34,797 nucleotides of DNA, from positions 1 through 34,797 of the forward strand of contig JAUNMU010000006.1 in assembly GCA_030531745.1 (NCBI GenBank), given 5' to 3'. The notes under the pieces are model-generated. The model was not told the DNA's origin, did no database searches, and saw nothing but the letters and a program-made list of their open reading frames with translations. A program made the translations under genes and the position numbers. The DNA is from Synergistes sp. GTDB lineage: Bacteria > Synergistota > Synergistia > Synergistales > Synergistaceae. Positions within the stretch are counted from its first letter, which is position 1; the number at the start of each line of letters is the position of its first letter. Shown here one piece after another: positions 15,036 to 25,869 of the stretch.

Positions 15036-15117
15036 AGAGGTTACGAAGCCTACCAAAATCGTTGTAATAGAGGTTACGAAGCCTACCAAAATCGTTGTAA
15101 TAGAGGCTGCGAAGCCT
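15036..15117 (+). ncRNA. toxI: ToxI-like type III RNA antitoxin: about 2.5 tandem 33-nt repeats
   Basis: Two identical 33-nt units (15036-15068 and 15069-15101), beginning AGAGGTTACGAAGCC, are followed by a partial third (15102-15117) with two changes. There are no spacers between units, so this is not a CRISPR array. Repeat length and copy number fall in the range known for antitoxins of the ToxN/AbiQ/CptN families. The order promoter, repeats, terminator, toxin is the defining layout of type III systems. Each unit should be excised by the toxin and fold into a pseudoknot that inhibits it. The third unit can also pair CTGCGAA (15107-15113) with TTCGCAG (15122-15128). Confidence 0.85.
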
Positions 15118-15158: not shown

Positions 15159-15173
15159 ATTGGAGATATGAAA

Positions 15174-15713
15174 ATGCAGAGATGGATTATTGGCAATGAG
15201 AACTATTTGTCTTACCTTAGAAAAACCGAAGACCGGATACCGAACTCAAATTATGGAGAGAGCCATTACAAGCCTTTTTTCGGTGAGTTGTTTTCGGTTG
15301 GTGATTTAGTCTATGTTACGCAGGTATCTTCCGTTAAACCTCGGCATGAAAAATTAAAAAACAGCAAAGATTTTTTCAAACTGTATATATCGTCCGGCAA
15401 AGCAGGAAAGCCGGACGAATTGGTTGCCGTAGTTAATCTTAACTATATGTTTCCCGTTCCGTACAGATTGATAGAATATCTTGAAATGAAGAACATTGAC
15501 CAAGTAAGAGGTTTCGGCAGCGAAGAAGAAAAGACAAAATACATAAATCTGCTCAATAAGGAAATTGAAGCAATCAATGTACTTAGGATTGACACTAAAG
15601 CGCAGAATCTTTACTCGTTTGTAGAAAAATATCCTGAAGCTAAGATCTCTCAGCGTTGTTTTAACTTCAAGTTTCTTGAACAAATAGCATTAAAATATTC
15701 CGATGATCGGTAA
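15174..15713 (+). CDS. toxN: Type III toxin-antitoxin endoribonuclease, ToxN/AbiQ family
   Basis: A 179-residue cytoplasmic ribonuclease. The N-terminus Y-L-S-Y-L-R-K-T-E-D-R-I-P-N and the block K-P-F-F-G-E-L-F at 33-40 are typical of ToxN-like toxins, as are V-S-S-V-K-P-R-H at 51-58 and N-Y-M-F-P-V-P. Lys33, Ser52 and Ser53 fall at the positions of the ToxN active residues (Lys33, Thr52, Ser53, from my memory of the family). The toxin cleaves mRNA and its own antitoxin precursor, and such systems commonly act in phage abortive infection. GGAG (15162-15165) is 8 nt before ATG 15174 and 2 nt before ATG 15168, so 15174 is the better start. It is preceded by the repeat RNA and terminator. The next genes are convergent and unrelated, so the locus is a compact insertion. 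Confidence 0.88.
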   Translation: MQRWIIGNENYLSYLRKTEDRIPNSNYGESHYKPFFGELFSVGDLVYVTQVSSVKPRHEKLKNSKDFFKLYISSGKAGKPDELVAVVNLNYMFPVPYRLIEYLEMKNIDQVRGFGSEEEKTKYINLLNKEIEAINVLRIDTKAQNLYSFVEKYPEAKISQRCFNFKFLEQIALKYSDDR

Positions 15714-15782: not shown

Positions 15783-16955
15783 TTAGTGCGAAATCTCGGA
15801 TTGTTCTATCAAACGCAAGTAGTTTGATATTTTATTGCCCAAGCCGACGAGATCAAATTTCTCAGCACGCTCCCGTGAACGGTTTAGGTAGCGGTCAACA
15901 TTATCTGCCGTTAATAAGCGGTCACTGTCTGCCAACGATTTGGTTATCAATGTGTTTATTGATGGGTGGTAGTGGCTCGTGTCTTTGTATAGTGAAATGT
16001 CATCGGGAAATGCCAGATCCTCAAAGCCATAGACATAAAGATTGTGCAGCGTCTGCGATTTCAGCGCAAAGTAGCGAACGATTTCCCTATGTATGATTGA
16101 TGAGGGAATGTCGTATTGATACCATATCCCGTAACAGATTCTTGAATACGGCGGAAATACGGCGTAGAATTTTGTCTCAGGGTTATCTCTCACAATATTT
16201 ATAAAATAATCGTTGCAATATTTTTTTGCCGCACTTATGAGTTTTGCCATTTTTGCGGCATCATATTCTATGCGTTTATTTTCTTGTATGCTTTTCGTGG
16301 CATGTGTTATGTCACGAAAAGCCTCTATTATCTGACCATTGTTTTTTGCGTCAAACCACTTCTGCAAACCGCCGAACCGCATCATGTGGTCTTGGACATC
16401 ACTCCAGCGTGACGGACAATTATATTCATGATATGCGATGTCCTGTTTATATTCATTATGATACATCACATTCTTGATTATTGTTTTTAGTGCAGAACGG
16501 CTAAAATATATTTTGACATTGTTCGCAATATTGTCATCATACAGATATTGATAATCACTTAAATTGACACCTTTATTAACGATGTCCTGCTTTAAGTAAT
16601 GTGAATCCAATGAGTATATTATGGCTTTTACTTTTTTGTGCGCAAGCAAATACCTTAGTACAAAGCTTCGTTCAAAAATTTTGCCTCCGGATATTGATAT
16701 GTTGGCAAATTTGCAGTGTTTGAATATTTTGTTTGTTTCAATGGCAGAGCTGTTTTCCATCATACTCGTGCCTAATATGTATGAATCAAATTTTGGGTCA
16801 TTGATAGCCGCCAATGCTGAATATCTCATCTCCAATCCCTTTGTCGCCAATATCGGACTGTTGTATAGCACGTGAAATGGATCTAAGGCAATGATCGTAC
16901 CGAAAAAAATTACCGGAAACAATAATATTGTGTAAAAATATTTTTTATATTTCAT
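15783..16955 (-). CDS. SGNH-hydrolase-like membrane-anchored partner of MBOAT acyltransferase
   Basis: A 390-residue protein with one N-terminal membrane helix (about residues 6-24), the rest extracytoplasmic. S-Y-I-L-G-T-S-M-M-E-N-S at about 58-69 holds the GxS nucleophile-type motif, and D-T-S-H-Y-H-P near 325 supplies the Asp/His pair, as in SGNH/DltD/AlgJ-like proteins. It lies 14 nt downstream of the MBOAT gene on the same strand with AAGAGG as ribosome site, so the two are co-transcribed. Such partners complete transfer of acyl (often acetyl) groups to extracellular polysaccharides. The polymer modified here is unknown. Specific family membership is by eye, and sequence between the motifs is divergent. 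Confidence 0.7.
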   Translation of the reverse strand: MKYKKYFYTILLFPVIFFGTIIALDPFHVLYNSPILATKGLEMRYSALAAINDPKFDSYILGTSMMENSSAIETNKIFKHCKFANISISGGKIFERSFVLRYLLAHKKVKAIIYSLDSHYLKQDIVNKGVNLSDYQYLYDDNIANNVKIYFSRSALKTIIKNVMYHNEYKQDIAYHEYNCPSRWSDVQDHMMRFGGLQKWFDAKNNGQIIEAFRDITHATKSIQENKRIEYDAAKMAKLISAAKKYCNDYFINIVRDNPETKFYAVFPPYSRICYGIWYQYDIPSSIIHREIVRYFALKSQTLHNLYVYGFEDLAFPDDISLYKDTSHYHPSINTLITKSLADSDRLLTADNVDRYLNRSRERAEKFDLVGLGNKISNYLRLIEQSEISH

Positions 16956-16969
16956 GGGTTATGCCTCTT

Positions 16970-18390
16970 CTAAAATTGAAAATACAAAAATTCTGATATA
17001 TTGCCAAGCGACATCAACGCGACTGTAATTATAATGCCGGTGATAACAGCAGCGATATGTAAATGATCTGAGTGCAACAATCTATTAGCTATGGTGCCGG
17101 AAGTCGGGGCGTATAACATGACGGCGGCTATTATAAAGATGCCTTTTGCGTACCTTCCCGGAGTATATGCGCTTTCGGTCAATGTTTGGATATTCATTCC
17201 CGCCATGCCCTTGAGTATCTCAGTTGCCTGCGCCACATTGTCGGCTCTGAAAAACACCCATGCGATCACTATGCACACAAAGGTTATGAGATGACTTATG
17301 GGCTTTGGTATATCAAACGGTTTGTGTTCTCGCCATAGGTGGTTTATCGTAAGAAACAGTCCGTGAAGCCCTCCCCATATTACAAATGTCCAGCCTGCGC
17401 CATGCCACAGACCGCCAAGGAGCATTGTCAGCATGAGGTTTATATATCTGCGGAGTTTTCCCCTTCTGTTGCCGCCGAGGGGAATGTAAAGATATTCTTT
17501 TAAGAAGCCGGAGAGGGTGATGTGCCATCTGCGCCAGAAGTCTGTTATTGACGCGGCTTTGTACGGCGAATTGAAGTTTATCGGCAGCTCTATATTGAAA
17601 AATCTGCCAAGGCCGAGTGCCATATCCGAGTATCCCGAGAAATCAAAGTATATCTGAAATGTGTATGAAAGTGCGCCTCCCCACGCTTCTATGAATGTCA
17701 AAGCATGGTCGGCTCCAAAAGCGGCGGCGACCCACGGGGAGAATGTGTCTGCTATGACGACCTTTTTGAAGAGCCCTATGGAAAACAGAGTGATACCTAT
17801 ACAGAGATTTTTGTATGAAAGGCAAAATATACGTTTGTTGTCAAATTGAGGAATCAGCGTATCGGCGAGGACTATCGGTCCTGCTATGAGCTGCGGGAAG
17901 AATGAAACAAAGAGCGCGTAACGGTACAAAGAGAGACGCCCTATCTTACCTTTATATGTGTCAACAAGACATGCTATCTGCTGAAATGTGAAGAACGATA
18001 TACCAAGAGGCAGGAATATATTTTTTGTGTGCCATGATGCGCCGAAAATTGCGGCGATATTCTGTGCGAAGAAGTCAGCGTACTTAAAATATCCGATGAG
18101 AGCAAGGTTGAGGATCACGCCTGCAATAAGATAATATTTTGAACTATAGTCCCCCCCCCCCCGTTTTGCAACAATAGTTCAGCTAAGCGGTTTTGGATAA
18201 GGCAGTTTACCGCTATTGAGCCGAGCAGCAGCAGAAGATAAGGGGGATTCCAATAGCCGTAAAAGAAGAGCGAACAGACAAGAAGCCCCGCAAGAGCCGC
18301 CTGTGTTCTCTTATAATTGCAGAGGGTTCGCCAGATAATATATGTCACCGGCATAAAGAGAAATATAAATTCAAATGAGTTAAATAACAT
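16970..18390 (-). pseudogene. MBOAT-family O-acyltransferase (DltB/AlgI type), split by frameshift in a poly-G tract; possible phase-variable gene
   Basis: Two minus-strand frames make up one MBOAT protein. The first (ATG 18390) ends at TGA 18117-18115 and begins M-L-F-N-S-F-E-F-I-F-L-F-M-P, the usual family start. The second covers the rest to TAG at 16970 and, read upstream, continues as D-Y-S-S-K-Y-Y-L-I-A-G-V-I-L-N-L into the G run. Hallmarks in the second part are Y-F-D-F-S-G-Y-S-D-M-A, W-R-R-W-H-I-T-L-S, Y-I-P-L-G-G-N-R-R-G and G-G-L-W-H-G with the catalytic His. With 12 G the first frame reads four Gly then T-I-V and fails; 10 or 13 G would join the frames into about 473 residues, the normal length. 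It may be a genuine OFF phase, a damaged gene, or a homopolymer sequencing error. It would pass acyl groups across the membrane to the SGNH partner. Confidence 0.85.
18141..18180. repeat. 12-base poly-C/G homopolymer flanked by inverted repeat inside MBOAT gene
   Basis: The plus strand has 12 consecutive C at 18151-18162 (G on the coding strand). It is bracketed by GAACTATAGT (18141-18150) and ACAATAGTTC (18171-18180), which are complementary at 9 of 10 positions. The tract is the longest homopolymer I see in the window and sits exactly where the reading frame shifts. Such tracts are classic sites of slipped-strand mispairing; the flanking hairpin could promote it. Confidence 0.9.
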
Positions 18391-22393: not shown

Positions 22394-24508
22394 TTAAAAC
22401 TTAAAGTTATGGTTAATGACCGCGTCTAACAGCAGATCGCCGTTGACATTGTATTTTTTACCGGCAGGCGCTCTTTTTGTTCGGCTGTCTCCGTTGGATA
22501 TGCCGGCAAAATCCATATAAACTATACCAGTAGGCCCGTCAAGATTTGCTATGTGGTCTATAGCGCGTCTGTTCTGATACTCTGCGTTCCATGGGTAATT
22601 TGTAGCTTTGCCGAATTCGTCTTTAATATATCCGGAGACGAAGTTAAAGCACCACAGGCTTTCATCGGGGTGGGCTATAACGTGTTGGGCAAACTTGTCA
22701 AACATTTCGTTCATCTTATTCGTCTTGTCCTGAATATCTGAGCCTGTTTTGTCAACAGACCATTTGTTCTGACTCCACGAAGTGTTTTTGCCGGATGAAT
22801 CGGGTAGCCCTACGCTTCCGTCATATTTCAGACCGAACGAGCCTGAGCCCCAACGGCAGCATATTGAGGGATCCAACACGACACCCCTTGTGTTGTTCAC
22901 ATCGCAGTTTATAAACAGGAATTTGCCCCTTACGTCTTTAAGTCTCAAATCGGGTTTGAAACGTACGGCCCTTGCATCGTTGTTCTGTCTTAAAACAGCA
23001 TCCTGCATTTCTTTGTACTTTTTCGCATTTGGCGTTCCGTCCCACGCAAATTCTATAATGGCAAAGTCTCTCGGATAGTTCGTCAATGCCTTTTTAATGG
23101 TATCCATCGCGGCCGAGAACTTAACTCCGGAGCTGAATGCGTGACCGAGGTAGAGCTCTGAATGTGTGTAATGTCCGAGTCTCAGGTCAAAACAGCGAAC
23201 CCCTCGGCTAAACTGATTGTAAAAGTCAAGCCCCTGCGTTCTTGCGTACATTTCAATTATATTGTCAAGACCGTAGGTTGCAGAATCATGAGTGCCCGGA
23301 ATGCTGAGCTGTGTGATCAGCTGATCGTCCGGAAGGTCAGCCATCCATGACTTTTTACGAACGGTAAAGAACAATCTTATAAGTCTGTTGCCGTATTGCG
23401 AAGGAATGGCATCCGCAAAATCTCCTTTTTTGCTTGGATAGGGAATGTATATCTGCGGAGCCCTGCTTTTCCCCAAAAACACATCGCTTCCGAACTTTGG
23501 CGGCGCAACAAAACCAAAATCCATAAGTTTCAGCTTCGGACAATTTGCAAATGCTTTGTCGCCTATTGTGTATTTCACATCCTTGTTCTCGCGCATAAAC
23601 TTCTGCATTGACGGGTGCGTTCCGCTGTTGTCTGTAATGTCGCGGTACATGTCCCGATAGTCTCCGCAGCCTATGTTTACAATTTCAAGCTCAGGACAGT
23701 TTGCAAACGCGCTGTCATCTATATCCGGTGTGCCAAAAATTATAACCCTTCTGAGCTTCGGCATATTGGCAAAGGCACTTGCGCCTATGTCTCTTATCTG
23801 TCCGGGAATAATCACCATTTCAACGCTGTCTCTGAGCTGCGGATTGTTTTGCATGAAATTCACCGGCACAGAGACCAACGTCCCGCTACCGCTGTTGTCC
23901 CCAAAACGCAGCACTTGCAGTTTGCGGCTGTCTGCAAAATTATTTACACGCACAACGGCATTATTGACATTCTCTTCAATTATGTTGTCAAGATCGTAGG
24001 TCGCAGAATCATGAGTGCCGGAAATGCCGAGCTGAGCATCCGCCGCAAGACTGCCTGCGGCATTGGGATCATCCTGCGGCAAAGAGGCCGCTTCAAAACC
24101 GTTTGCTGAGTTTGGATCCTCCTGCGGCAAATCTGCCGTTTCAAAGTTATTTGCAGCATCAGCTGCATCCTGTGACAAGACATCCTCTTCACACGAATCA
24201 TCAGATATTGCTATCTGAGCAATCTCTAAAAGCTCCATCCCAAACAACTTTTCAAGCTGACTTTCGTACTCACTCCAGTTAAGCGACGTCCCTTCGGTAA
24301 GCTTAAAACAGATCTCACAGTTATCCTTCCCATTGTCGCAGGGTTGGTATTTCCCGAAATATCCGGCTTCCGCAAGTAATTCGGCAGGAACCTCTTGCGC
24401 CGTATCATATGAACTGCCGCCGCAGCCGCCCGACACGATCACCGCGAGAAAGACAAACACAACGAAAATCACCGTAAGAAATTTGAATTTTGCAGGTCTG
24501 TAATACAT
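22394..24508 (-). CDS. Putative lipoprotein with BspA-like leucine-rich repeats and PI-PLC X domain
   Basis: A 704-residue exported protein. Residues 8-28 are hydrophobic and end in S-G-G-C (Cys29), an atypical lipobox. Residues 110-155 are acidic low-complexity repeats (P-Q-x-D-P-N-x-A). Residues about 190-385 contain BspA-like LRR units (D-I-G-A-S-A-F-A-N-M-P-K-L-R-R-V; D-S-A-F-A-N-C-P-E-L-E-I-V). Residues about 395-700 are a phosphatidylinositol-specific phospholipase C X-type domain: I-P-G-T-H-D-S-A-T-Y with the catalytic His, C-F-D-L-R-L-G, and Y-L-G-H-A-F with the second His. A second G-T-H-D-S-A-T-Y motif at about 163 precedes the LRRs and is a DNA-level duplicate. It is a single gene with the shared terminator downstream. 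Cell-surface interaction with host or phospholipid is plausible but inferred. Confidence 0.85.
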   Translation of the reverse strand: MYYRPAKFKFLTVIFVVFVFLAVIVSGGCGGSSYDTAQEVPAELLAEAGYFGKYQPCDNGKDNCEICFKLTEGTSLNWSEYESQLEKLFGMELLEIAQIAISDDSCEEDVLSQDAADAANNFETADLPQEDPNSANGFEAASLPQDDPNAAGSLAADAQLGISGTHDSATYDLDNIIEENVNNAVVRVNNFADSRKLQVLRFGDNSGSGTLVSVPVNFMQNNPQLRDSVEMVIIPGQIRDIGASAFANMPKLRRVIIFGTPDIDDSAFANCPELEIVNIGCGDYRDMYRDITDNSGTHPSMQKFMRENKDVKYTIGDKAFANCPKLKLMDFGFVAPPKFGSDVFLGKSRAPQIYIPYPSKKGDFADAIPSQYGNRLIRLFFTVRKKSWMADLPDDQLITQLSIPGTHDSATYGLDNIIEMYARTQGLDFYNQFSRGVRCFDLRLGHYTHSELYLGHAFSSGVKFSAAMDTIKKALTNYPRDFAIIEFAWDGTPNAKKYKEMQDAVLRQNNDARAVRFKPDLRLKDVRGKFLFINCDVNNTRGVVLDPSICCRWGSGSFGLKYDGSVGLPDSSGKNTSWSQNKWSVDKTGSDIQDKTNKMNEMFDKFAQHVIAHPDESLWCFNFVSGYIKDEFGKATNYPWNAEYQNRRAIDHIANLDGPTGIVYMDFAGISNGDSRTKRAPAGKKYNVNGDLLLDAVINHNFKF
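23252..23314. repeat. Direct repeat B within the PI-PLC gene (encodes second GTHDSATY motif)
   Basis: Bases 23252-23314 and 23975-24037 agree at about 55 of 63 positions in the same orientation. Both encode the P/S-G-T-H-D-S-A-T-Y-x-L-D-N-I-I-E segment of PI-PLC. The intervening 660 bases encode the leucine-rich-repeat region. Confidence 0.85.
23975..24037. repeat. Direct repeat A within the PI-PLC gene (encodes first GTHDSATY motif)
   Basis: Partner of the repeat at 23252-23314. Only the first catalytic-His segment is present at this place; the rest of the PI-PLC domain does not follow, so this copy should be non-catalytic by itself. Confidence 0.85.
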
Positions 24509-24858: not shown

Positions 24859-25869
24859 TCAACAGGCATTCTCACTACCTCCTGTGTTTTCTTCTATTTC
24901 CGGTAAGTTGGACAATTCCTGCAATTTCTTTCGCAGGATCTCCTTATCCGGCAGTTGTAACTGATACTGCGCTACCATCATAGGCGAGAGTGTCCGGCTC
25001 ATGGCATACTCAACTACCTCGTCATTTTTGGCTGCACAAAGCAGCAGTCCCACGCTCGGATTCTCGTCCGGCTTTTTTATCTGCCGATCCAGTCCCTCAA
25101 GATAAAAATCCATCTTGGAAACATATTCCGGCTTGAATTTTCCGACTTTCAGTTCTATCGGAACAAGACAGCGCAGACTGCGGTGGAAAAACAACAAGTC
25201 AATACGATAGTCCTCGCTGCCAACCAAAATCGGGTATTCTTCGCCGATAAAGGTAAAATCTTTGCCCAATTCAAGTATAAAGTCGCGCATTCCCTTGACA
25301 AGCGCCCTGCGGAAATCATTCTCATGGAAAGTATCAGGTAAATCAAGAAATTCTACCACATACTGATCAAGGAACGGATTCTGCTCTAAGCGCAGCGGTT
25401 CCGGCAGCAGTTTGCTTTTGGAGAGCATATACCGCTCATAATAGCCGCTGTCCATCTGCCGTTCAAGCTGACGGGAACTGTATCGCTCCTTAATGGCGAG
25501 GCGCATATAAAATTCCCGCTCTTCATCACTTTTGCTGCCGGACATAATGAGCAGATGGTTTGTCCAACTCAATTGTGTCAGCAGTGCTGACACTTTTTCG
25601 TCTTCGGCGTAAGTCTCGTAAAACTGCTTCATACGATAAAGCCCACGGCGGTTAAAACCTTTGATTCCGGGAAACTGATTTTGGATATACTCTGCAATGG
25701 AATCGATATAGCTGTCGCCGTAGTTTGCTTCTTTCAATTGTTCTGAAAGAAACTGCCCAACGCGCTGATACATCAAAATCAATTCCTCGTTCACTTTACG
25801 ATAAGCGTTGTCGCGAGCTTTTCTTATTATCTTCGCTATTTCAGCAAACGTATTATCAAGTTCGTTCAC
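24859..25869 (-). CDS. YhcG/DUF1016-family PD-(D/E)XK nuclease-like protein
   Basis: A 336-residue protein. The N-terminal helical domain (DUF1016_N; R-K-A-R-D-N-A-Y-R-K-V-N-E-E-L and Y-Q-R-V-G-Q-F-L-S-E) is followed by I-K-G-F-N-R-R-G-L-Y-R-M-K-Q-F-Y and L-S-W-T-N-H-L-L-I-M. The C-terminal nuclease fold has D-Y-R-I-D-L-L-F-F-H-R and P-I-E-L-K-V-G-K-F, the D...ExK active site. Length and order match the family. Its role is not established; members are often mobile and associated with restriction or defence regions. It stands alone between a lipoprotein gene and the pilus operon. Confidence 0.9.
   Translation of the reverse strand: MNELDNTFAEIAKIIRKARDNAYRKVNEELILMYQRVGQFLSEQLKEANYGDSYIDSIAEYIQNQFPGIKGFNRRGLYRMKQFYETYAEDEKVSALLTQLSWTNHLLIMSGSKSDEEREFYMRLAIKERYSSRQLERQMDSGYYERYMLSKSKLLPEPLRLEQNPFLDQYVVEFLDLPDTFHENDFRRALVKGMRDFILELGKDFTFIGEEYPILVGSEDYRIDLLFFHRSLRCLVPIELKVGKFKPEYVSKMDFYLEGLDRQIKKPDENPSVGLLLCAAKNDEVVEYAMSRTLSPMMVAQYQLQLPDKEILRKKLQELSNLPEIEENTGGSENAC

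Follow-up and report, generated by a model that had tools for sequence, protein, structure and literature searches.

A 12-G tract in an MBOAT acyltransferase gene of Synergistes sp. as a candidate phase-variation switch, and long G/C tracts in the Synergistaceae

Described systems and the Synergistes locus

Homopolymer phase variation has been studied mainly in host-adapted pathogens, among them Neisseria, Haemophilus and Campylobacter, and the repeat of the adhesin NadA is a tetranucleotide. For Campylobacter, the sections of the source available to us describe poly-G/C tracts in reading frames, with lengths of 9–12 being common and variation measured, and give a mutability threshold of about 8 G for C. 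jejuni (PMC6321876). The locus reported here, from a genome of Synergistes sp., is like these genes, as far as those sections describe them, in that a G tract lies in a reading frame and its length sets the frame. It differs from them in that Campylobacter has many tracts, whereas two runs of at least 9 are present here, in that the phylum is another one, and in that variation was measured there, whereas the present case is one of anatomy. In Neisseria meningitidis, the NadA repeat tract is found at the adhesin promoter, and regulation involves a repressor (PMC2791445, consulted sections). Similar placements in our data are tracts upstream of YadA-head proteins in another member of the family (G012) and a 16-G run that lies between consensus-like -35 and -10 elements.

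OatC, OatWY and Lot3 are phase-variable O-acetyltransferases, DltB and DltD form a pair, and we know of no phase-variable O-acetyltransferase that is an MBOAT protein. NeuO is a further phase-variable O-acetyltransferase (PMC3046976, accessible part). The random switching of surface-polysaccharide acylation that we propose would be like that of NeuO, OatC, OatWY and Lot3, but the switched enzyme would in this case be an MBOAT whose SGNH-like partner is a separate protein. AlgI-AlgX and PatA-PatB are pairs of an MBOAT and an SGNH protein (PMC9558356, accessible part), and the genes described below resemble these pairs and DltB-DltD in that they would form a two-gene membrane acyl-transfer module. 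Neither the accessible part of PMC9558356 nor the open-access literature yielded a description of phase variation in MBOAT-SGNH pairs. A preliminary description of the locus knew of no description of the trait in this group, and no report of poly-G switching in the Synergistaceae or their phylum was found in the open-access literature, subscription papers being outside the scope of the search. Two surveys touch on the phylum: in the portions available, one included 2 Synergistetes genomes in a count of frame transitions (PMC3711429) and the other lists putative DNA inversions in one of two Synergistetes species (PMC5903667). The mechanism is of a known kind; what we had not met before is its occurrence in this phylum, an MBOAT as its target and its apparent breadth in the family.

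The 12-G tract and its gene pair

The window, by which we mean the whole 34,797-nt stretch of DNA that was analysed, contains an MBOAT gene of about 473 codons whose sole break is a run of 12 G (Table 1). The resident upstream frame (18390 to 18115) comprises 91 codons up to its stop, 76 of them ahead of the tract, and the same protein is carried on past the tract in a different frame (16970-18118, 382 codons). The two frames are joined in one of the three tract phases only, and the remaining phases lead to a stop no more than about 15 codons past the tract start. The count and the frame analysis thus bear out what had been noted before, namely that 12 G sit at the frame break and that 10 or 13 G, but not 12, join the frames. 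The tract is so placed that a change by single units would alter the frame of one gene, as is required of a slipped-strand contingency locus. The inverted repeat that had been said to bracket the tract was recovered with 11-nt arms and one mismatch (91% complementary). As single-stranded DNA this region folds with -5.2 kcal/mol (z -3.2), and 1 of 200 shuffled sequences folds as well.

Table 1. Coordinates of the features discussed; positions refer to the window unless another record is named.
Feature	Position	Strand	Remark
12-G homopolymer, proposed slippage tract	18151..18162	-	read as 12 C on the + strand
MBOAT gene, 5' part, 76 codons, ATG 18390	18163..18390	-	64% amino acid identity with L014 N-terminus
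MBOAT gene, 3' part, other frame	16970..18150 (listed ORF 16970-18118)	-	PF03062 E 2.3e-34
OFF-frame stop TGA overlapping in-frame GTG of the downstream part; candidate re-initiation site	18115..18118	-	
Inverted-repeat arm 5' of tract	18171..18181	-	repeat search and fold
Inverted-repeat arm 3' of tract	18140..18150	-	repeat search and fold
Membrane-anchored DltD/SGNH-like partner, 390 aa, intact	15783..16955	-	starts 14 nt after MBOAT stop
33-nt repeats, 2.5 copies	15036-15117	+	just 5' of ToxN/AbiQ-family gene
ToxN/AbiQ-family gene	15168-15713	+	PF13958 E 1.2e-40; PADLOC AbiQ E 1.3e-19
704-aa protein with BspA-type leucine-rich repeats	22394-24508	-	weak PI-PLC-X match
YhcG/DUF1016 PD-(D/E)XK nuclease-like protein	24859-25869	-	PADLOC candidate defence family PDC-S02, E 1.6e-122
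16-G tract	G000:C37:17174-17189 = L001 1501-1516		between TTGACA and TATTAT, spacer 20
G019 secreted-protein loci	L139, L145, L153, L158, L159, L190, L191, L192		
G028 prophage tail-fibre modules (PHROG 2712)	L226 8200-9780; L227 8698-9677		

The downstream part of the gene matches the MBOAT family with 119.6 bits (E 2.3e-34), compared to a curated cut-off of 27, and its closest solved relative is DltB (E 3.6e-26). The histidine of the MBOAT motif, which has a catalytic role, is invariant as part of GLWHG in the four aligned MBOAT proteins. Compared to the intact relative L014, the 76 upstream codons show 64% and the downstream part 67% identity. The two halves are similarly constrained (pN/pS 0.244/0.821 and 0.232/0.785), although, dS being saturated, this equality mostly mirrors older selection. 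The MBOAT gene is intact in its three closest relatives (L014, L015, L016), and a G tract is absent from the corresponding place, where these relatives have, between hydrophobic segments, a loop that varies in length. A G/C run of at least 9 is likewise missing from all of 80 MBOAT loci of other bacteria, and the tract is therefore a recent and lineage-specific feature. One of the MBOAT matches is a Synergistales record (L076). A scan of viral contigs for a second copy of the tract locus found none.

The neighbouring gene was claimed to encode an SGNH partner, and its conserved residues agree with this. In an alignment of 14 sequences, the other 13 of which were taken from MBOAT-flanking loci, G62, S64 and H328 are invariant and G90 and D325 nearly so; we take these serine, glycine, histidine and aspartate residues to be those of the SGNH blocks. 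DltD is the best Foldseek match of the AlphaFold model (pLDDT 77.8; E 1.6e-4, probability 1.0, TM only 0.41), followed by SGNH esterases, and Pfam and PDB sequence searches gave the protein no name. Its homologues adjoin MBOATs in distant bacteria, and next in line to the MBOATs of L014, L015 and L016 is a protein of 362–377 aa with an N-terminal hydrophobic segment. The MBOAT and the 390-aa protein thus fit an MBOAT plus a separate SGNH module.

The tract, its frame logic and the integrity of the rest of both genes are direct observations. With a probability of roughly 0.68, in our estimate, the tract is a slipped-strand contingency locus that switches a surface-polymer MBOAT acyltransferase and was assembled in the OFF state. 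Replication slippage at the 12-G run would add or remove single G, and the G count would flip the MBOAT between ON, with the frame open over its full length, and OFF, with a premature stop. In the ON state, the enzyme would move an acyl group through the inner membrane and hand it to the adjoining DltD/SGNH-like partner, which would put it on an extracytoplasmic polymer, and the population would be a mixture of acylated and unacylated cells. What we infer is that the tract mutates at a high rate, that acyl groups are transferred and that the target lies on the surface. Phase-variable acylation of a surface polymer had already been predicted for this locus. The prediction is partly supported, by the sequence logic, by the second tract, which occupies a promoter spacer, and by the tracts that other members of the family have in frames or promoters of surface-related genes.

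The window also holds genes that may concern phages. A ToxN/AbiQ-family gene is convergent with the SGNH-like gene and, with the repeats ahead of it, reads as a type III toxin-antitoxin system that may have an anti-phage role. Further away are the YhcG-like and BspA-type proteins of Table 1.

Long G/C runs in the genome and in the family

We counted G-runs on both strands of the genome (1.61 Mb, 146 contigs) and found 71 of at least 6, 8 of at least 7 and 3 of at least 8; two are at least 9 long, and the same two account for all runs of at least 10 and of at least 12. Extrapolating the decay of these counts predicts about 0.01 runs of at least 10 in the genome, compared to the two present, of 12 and 16 G. 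Within the window, no other G or C run is longer than 5. At 12 G, the MBOAT tract is therefore beyond chance and above the C. jejuni threshold of about 8 G. The 16-G tract lies about 50 bases ahead of the ATG of a gene for a lipoprotein with a signal peptide. From its leader and cysteine, we read the product as a lipoprotein with DxDxDG-type repeats, a Pfam match being absent. Transcription is known to become phase-variable where a mutable run sets the length of a promoter spacer, and the position of the 16-G tract makes it a candidate phase-variable promoter. Thus, with one tract in a frame and the other in a promoter spacer, the only two long G-runs of the genome are both placed so that slippage would switch a gene. 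Lost mismatch repair as the source of long tracts was rejected for MutS: MutS1 is intact in this genome and scores above the cut-off in 50 of 52 genomes of the family. Long tracts thus persist here although mismatch repair is intact at least as far as MutS1 is concerned.

In the Synergistaceae set, in which the genus of the window is represented by one genome, runs of at least 10 occur in 32 of 52 genomes and runs of at least 12 in 18. Such raw counts are not evidence by themselves, since they are ordinary in high-GC genomes. We computed a composition-based expectation for 25 of the 52 genomes, selected by us. Runs of at least 10 exceed it in several genomes of low and medium GC content: G028 (7 vs 0.08), G012 (8 vs 0.5), G019 (12 vs 0.7), G001 (5 vs 0.35) and G020 (6 vs 0.02, one of the six, a 36-G tract next to runs of N, being dropped as an artefact). 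They are hardly in excess in G031 (3 vs 1.6) and show no excess in the high-GC genomes G002 (5 vs 6.4), G004 (10 vs 25) and, likewise, G021. One such run of G004 lies in an ORF that, to our eye, reads like FtsZ. In genus g7, none of the 8 genomes has a run of at least 10. Together with the high-GC genomes at expectation, this indicates that the tract trait is not universal in the family. Tracts of G065, G071 and G075 were excluded from the argument, since many of them have the appearance of assembly artefacts, being located at the ends of contigs or forming close pairs of opposed orientation.

Several of the observed family tracts interrupt or lie within coding frames. In G025, 12 G break an acyltransferase-3 gene (PF01757, Acyl_transf_3 on the first half), and intact paralogues of 365-399 aa in the same genome match both halves in a single frame. 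Runs of 15 G break a CysNC gene in G072 (GTP_EFTU / GTP-eEF1A_C and APS_kinase) and a PAS/GGDEF gene in G020. Others are in frame: 19 G within a glycosyltransferase-2 ORF of G015, and a tract in a restriction-modification-like ORF of G012 (L175), which at its present length causes no break. Promoter spacers are occupied by G10 in G005 (TTGACA-G10-GATAAT, twice) and in G014 (TTGACT-G10-TAAAAT). Among 55 tracts fetched from 14 genomes, a subset of the tracts of the family, 5 have a promoter match of at least 10/12, compared to 0.86 expected.

Tracts are also found ahead of genes for exported proteins. In G012, 10-G tracts lie 360-380 nt upstream of YadA-head adhesins. At L174 and L177 (G012), L028 (G001) and L183 (G028), G/C tracts of 10-12 nt are situated 160-380 nt upstream, and what follows are YadA-head or other signal-peptide-bearing proteins. 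G019 has eight paralogous secreted-protein loci with 10 or 12 C immediately ahead of the signal peptide, the tract being in frame with an upstream ATG in 2 of the 8; the one of these proteins that was run against Pfam has GLUG repeats. In the same genome, a 15-C tract (L160) is found immediately 5' of a prepilin-like N-methylation motif (PF07963), and its product is a possible switchable pilin. A 16-nt tract of G002 (L056/L206), a genome finished as a single contig whose loci have 64% G+C, lies just 5' of an ORF whose start, we presume, resembles that of an amino-acid:cation symporter.

G028, a single contig as well, has two prophage tail-fibre loci with 10 and 11 G, respectively, whose flanks show no difference over 514 nt ahead of the tract and 644 nt behind it. 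This is the nearest that we come to observed slippage, although it is indirect and a base-calling error in one copy is possible. Each module is preceded by a short SD-ATG leader with the 10-11 G, and where checked, the leader is open to its overlap with the fibre start in one tract phase only. The arrangement suggests that the phage tail fibres vary in phase through coupling to the leader.

Taken as a whole, poly-G/C tracts may serve the Synergistaceae as a general toolkit for phase variation, by which cell surface and phage receptor-binding proteins would switch by slippage; we lean slightly towards this reading. It would operate on four levels, namely coding frames (MBOAT, acyltransferase-3, CysNC, PAS-GGDEF and glycosyltransferase), promoter spacers, starts of secreted-protein genes and leader frames of tail fibres.

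Other explanations and biological meaning

Homopolymers are often miscounted in sequencing, and the assembly is in 146 contigs, so the true tract might have a fixed in-frame length with the gene always ON and no switching. We regard this as unlikely. Even at a fixed length, so long a G run would greatly exceed chance in this genome and be unusually mutable, and the second run, in a promoter spacer, as well as the tracts that break frames in three other genera would have to be explained away in the same manner. The assembled frame being OFF, slippage might instead have fixed that length in an MBOAT pseudogene that is now decaying. Neither the MBOAT nor its partner gene carries a second lesion, however, and both MBOAT halves are equally constrained, although with dS saturated this mostly reflects older selection. 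Decay is thus quite improbable in our view.

It is more doubtful still that the tract tunes the level of the enzyme rather than acting as a strict switch, the 12-G state yielding some full-length or N-terminally truncated product. The routes to it would be slippage during transcription of the G run, re-initiation where a stop and a start overlap at 18115-18118, or an internal promoter, TTGCAA-17-TATAGT, that spans the tract with a 9/12 match. Promoter matches in the region are at chance level (12, compared to 9.1 +/- 3.3 in shuffles), for which reason the internal promoter was dropped as a reading of its own, and a re-initiated protein would be devoid of the first three hydrophobic segments.

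Should the tracts switch, the Synergistaceae, too, would diversify their surface clonally, which would matter for their resistance to phages, for their interaction with hosts and for how strains differ within metagenomes. A switchable MBOAT-SGNH pair would add a phase-variable case to a family of modules in which we found none described.
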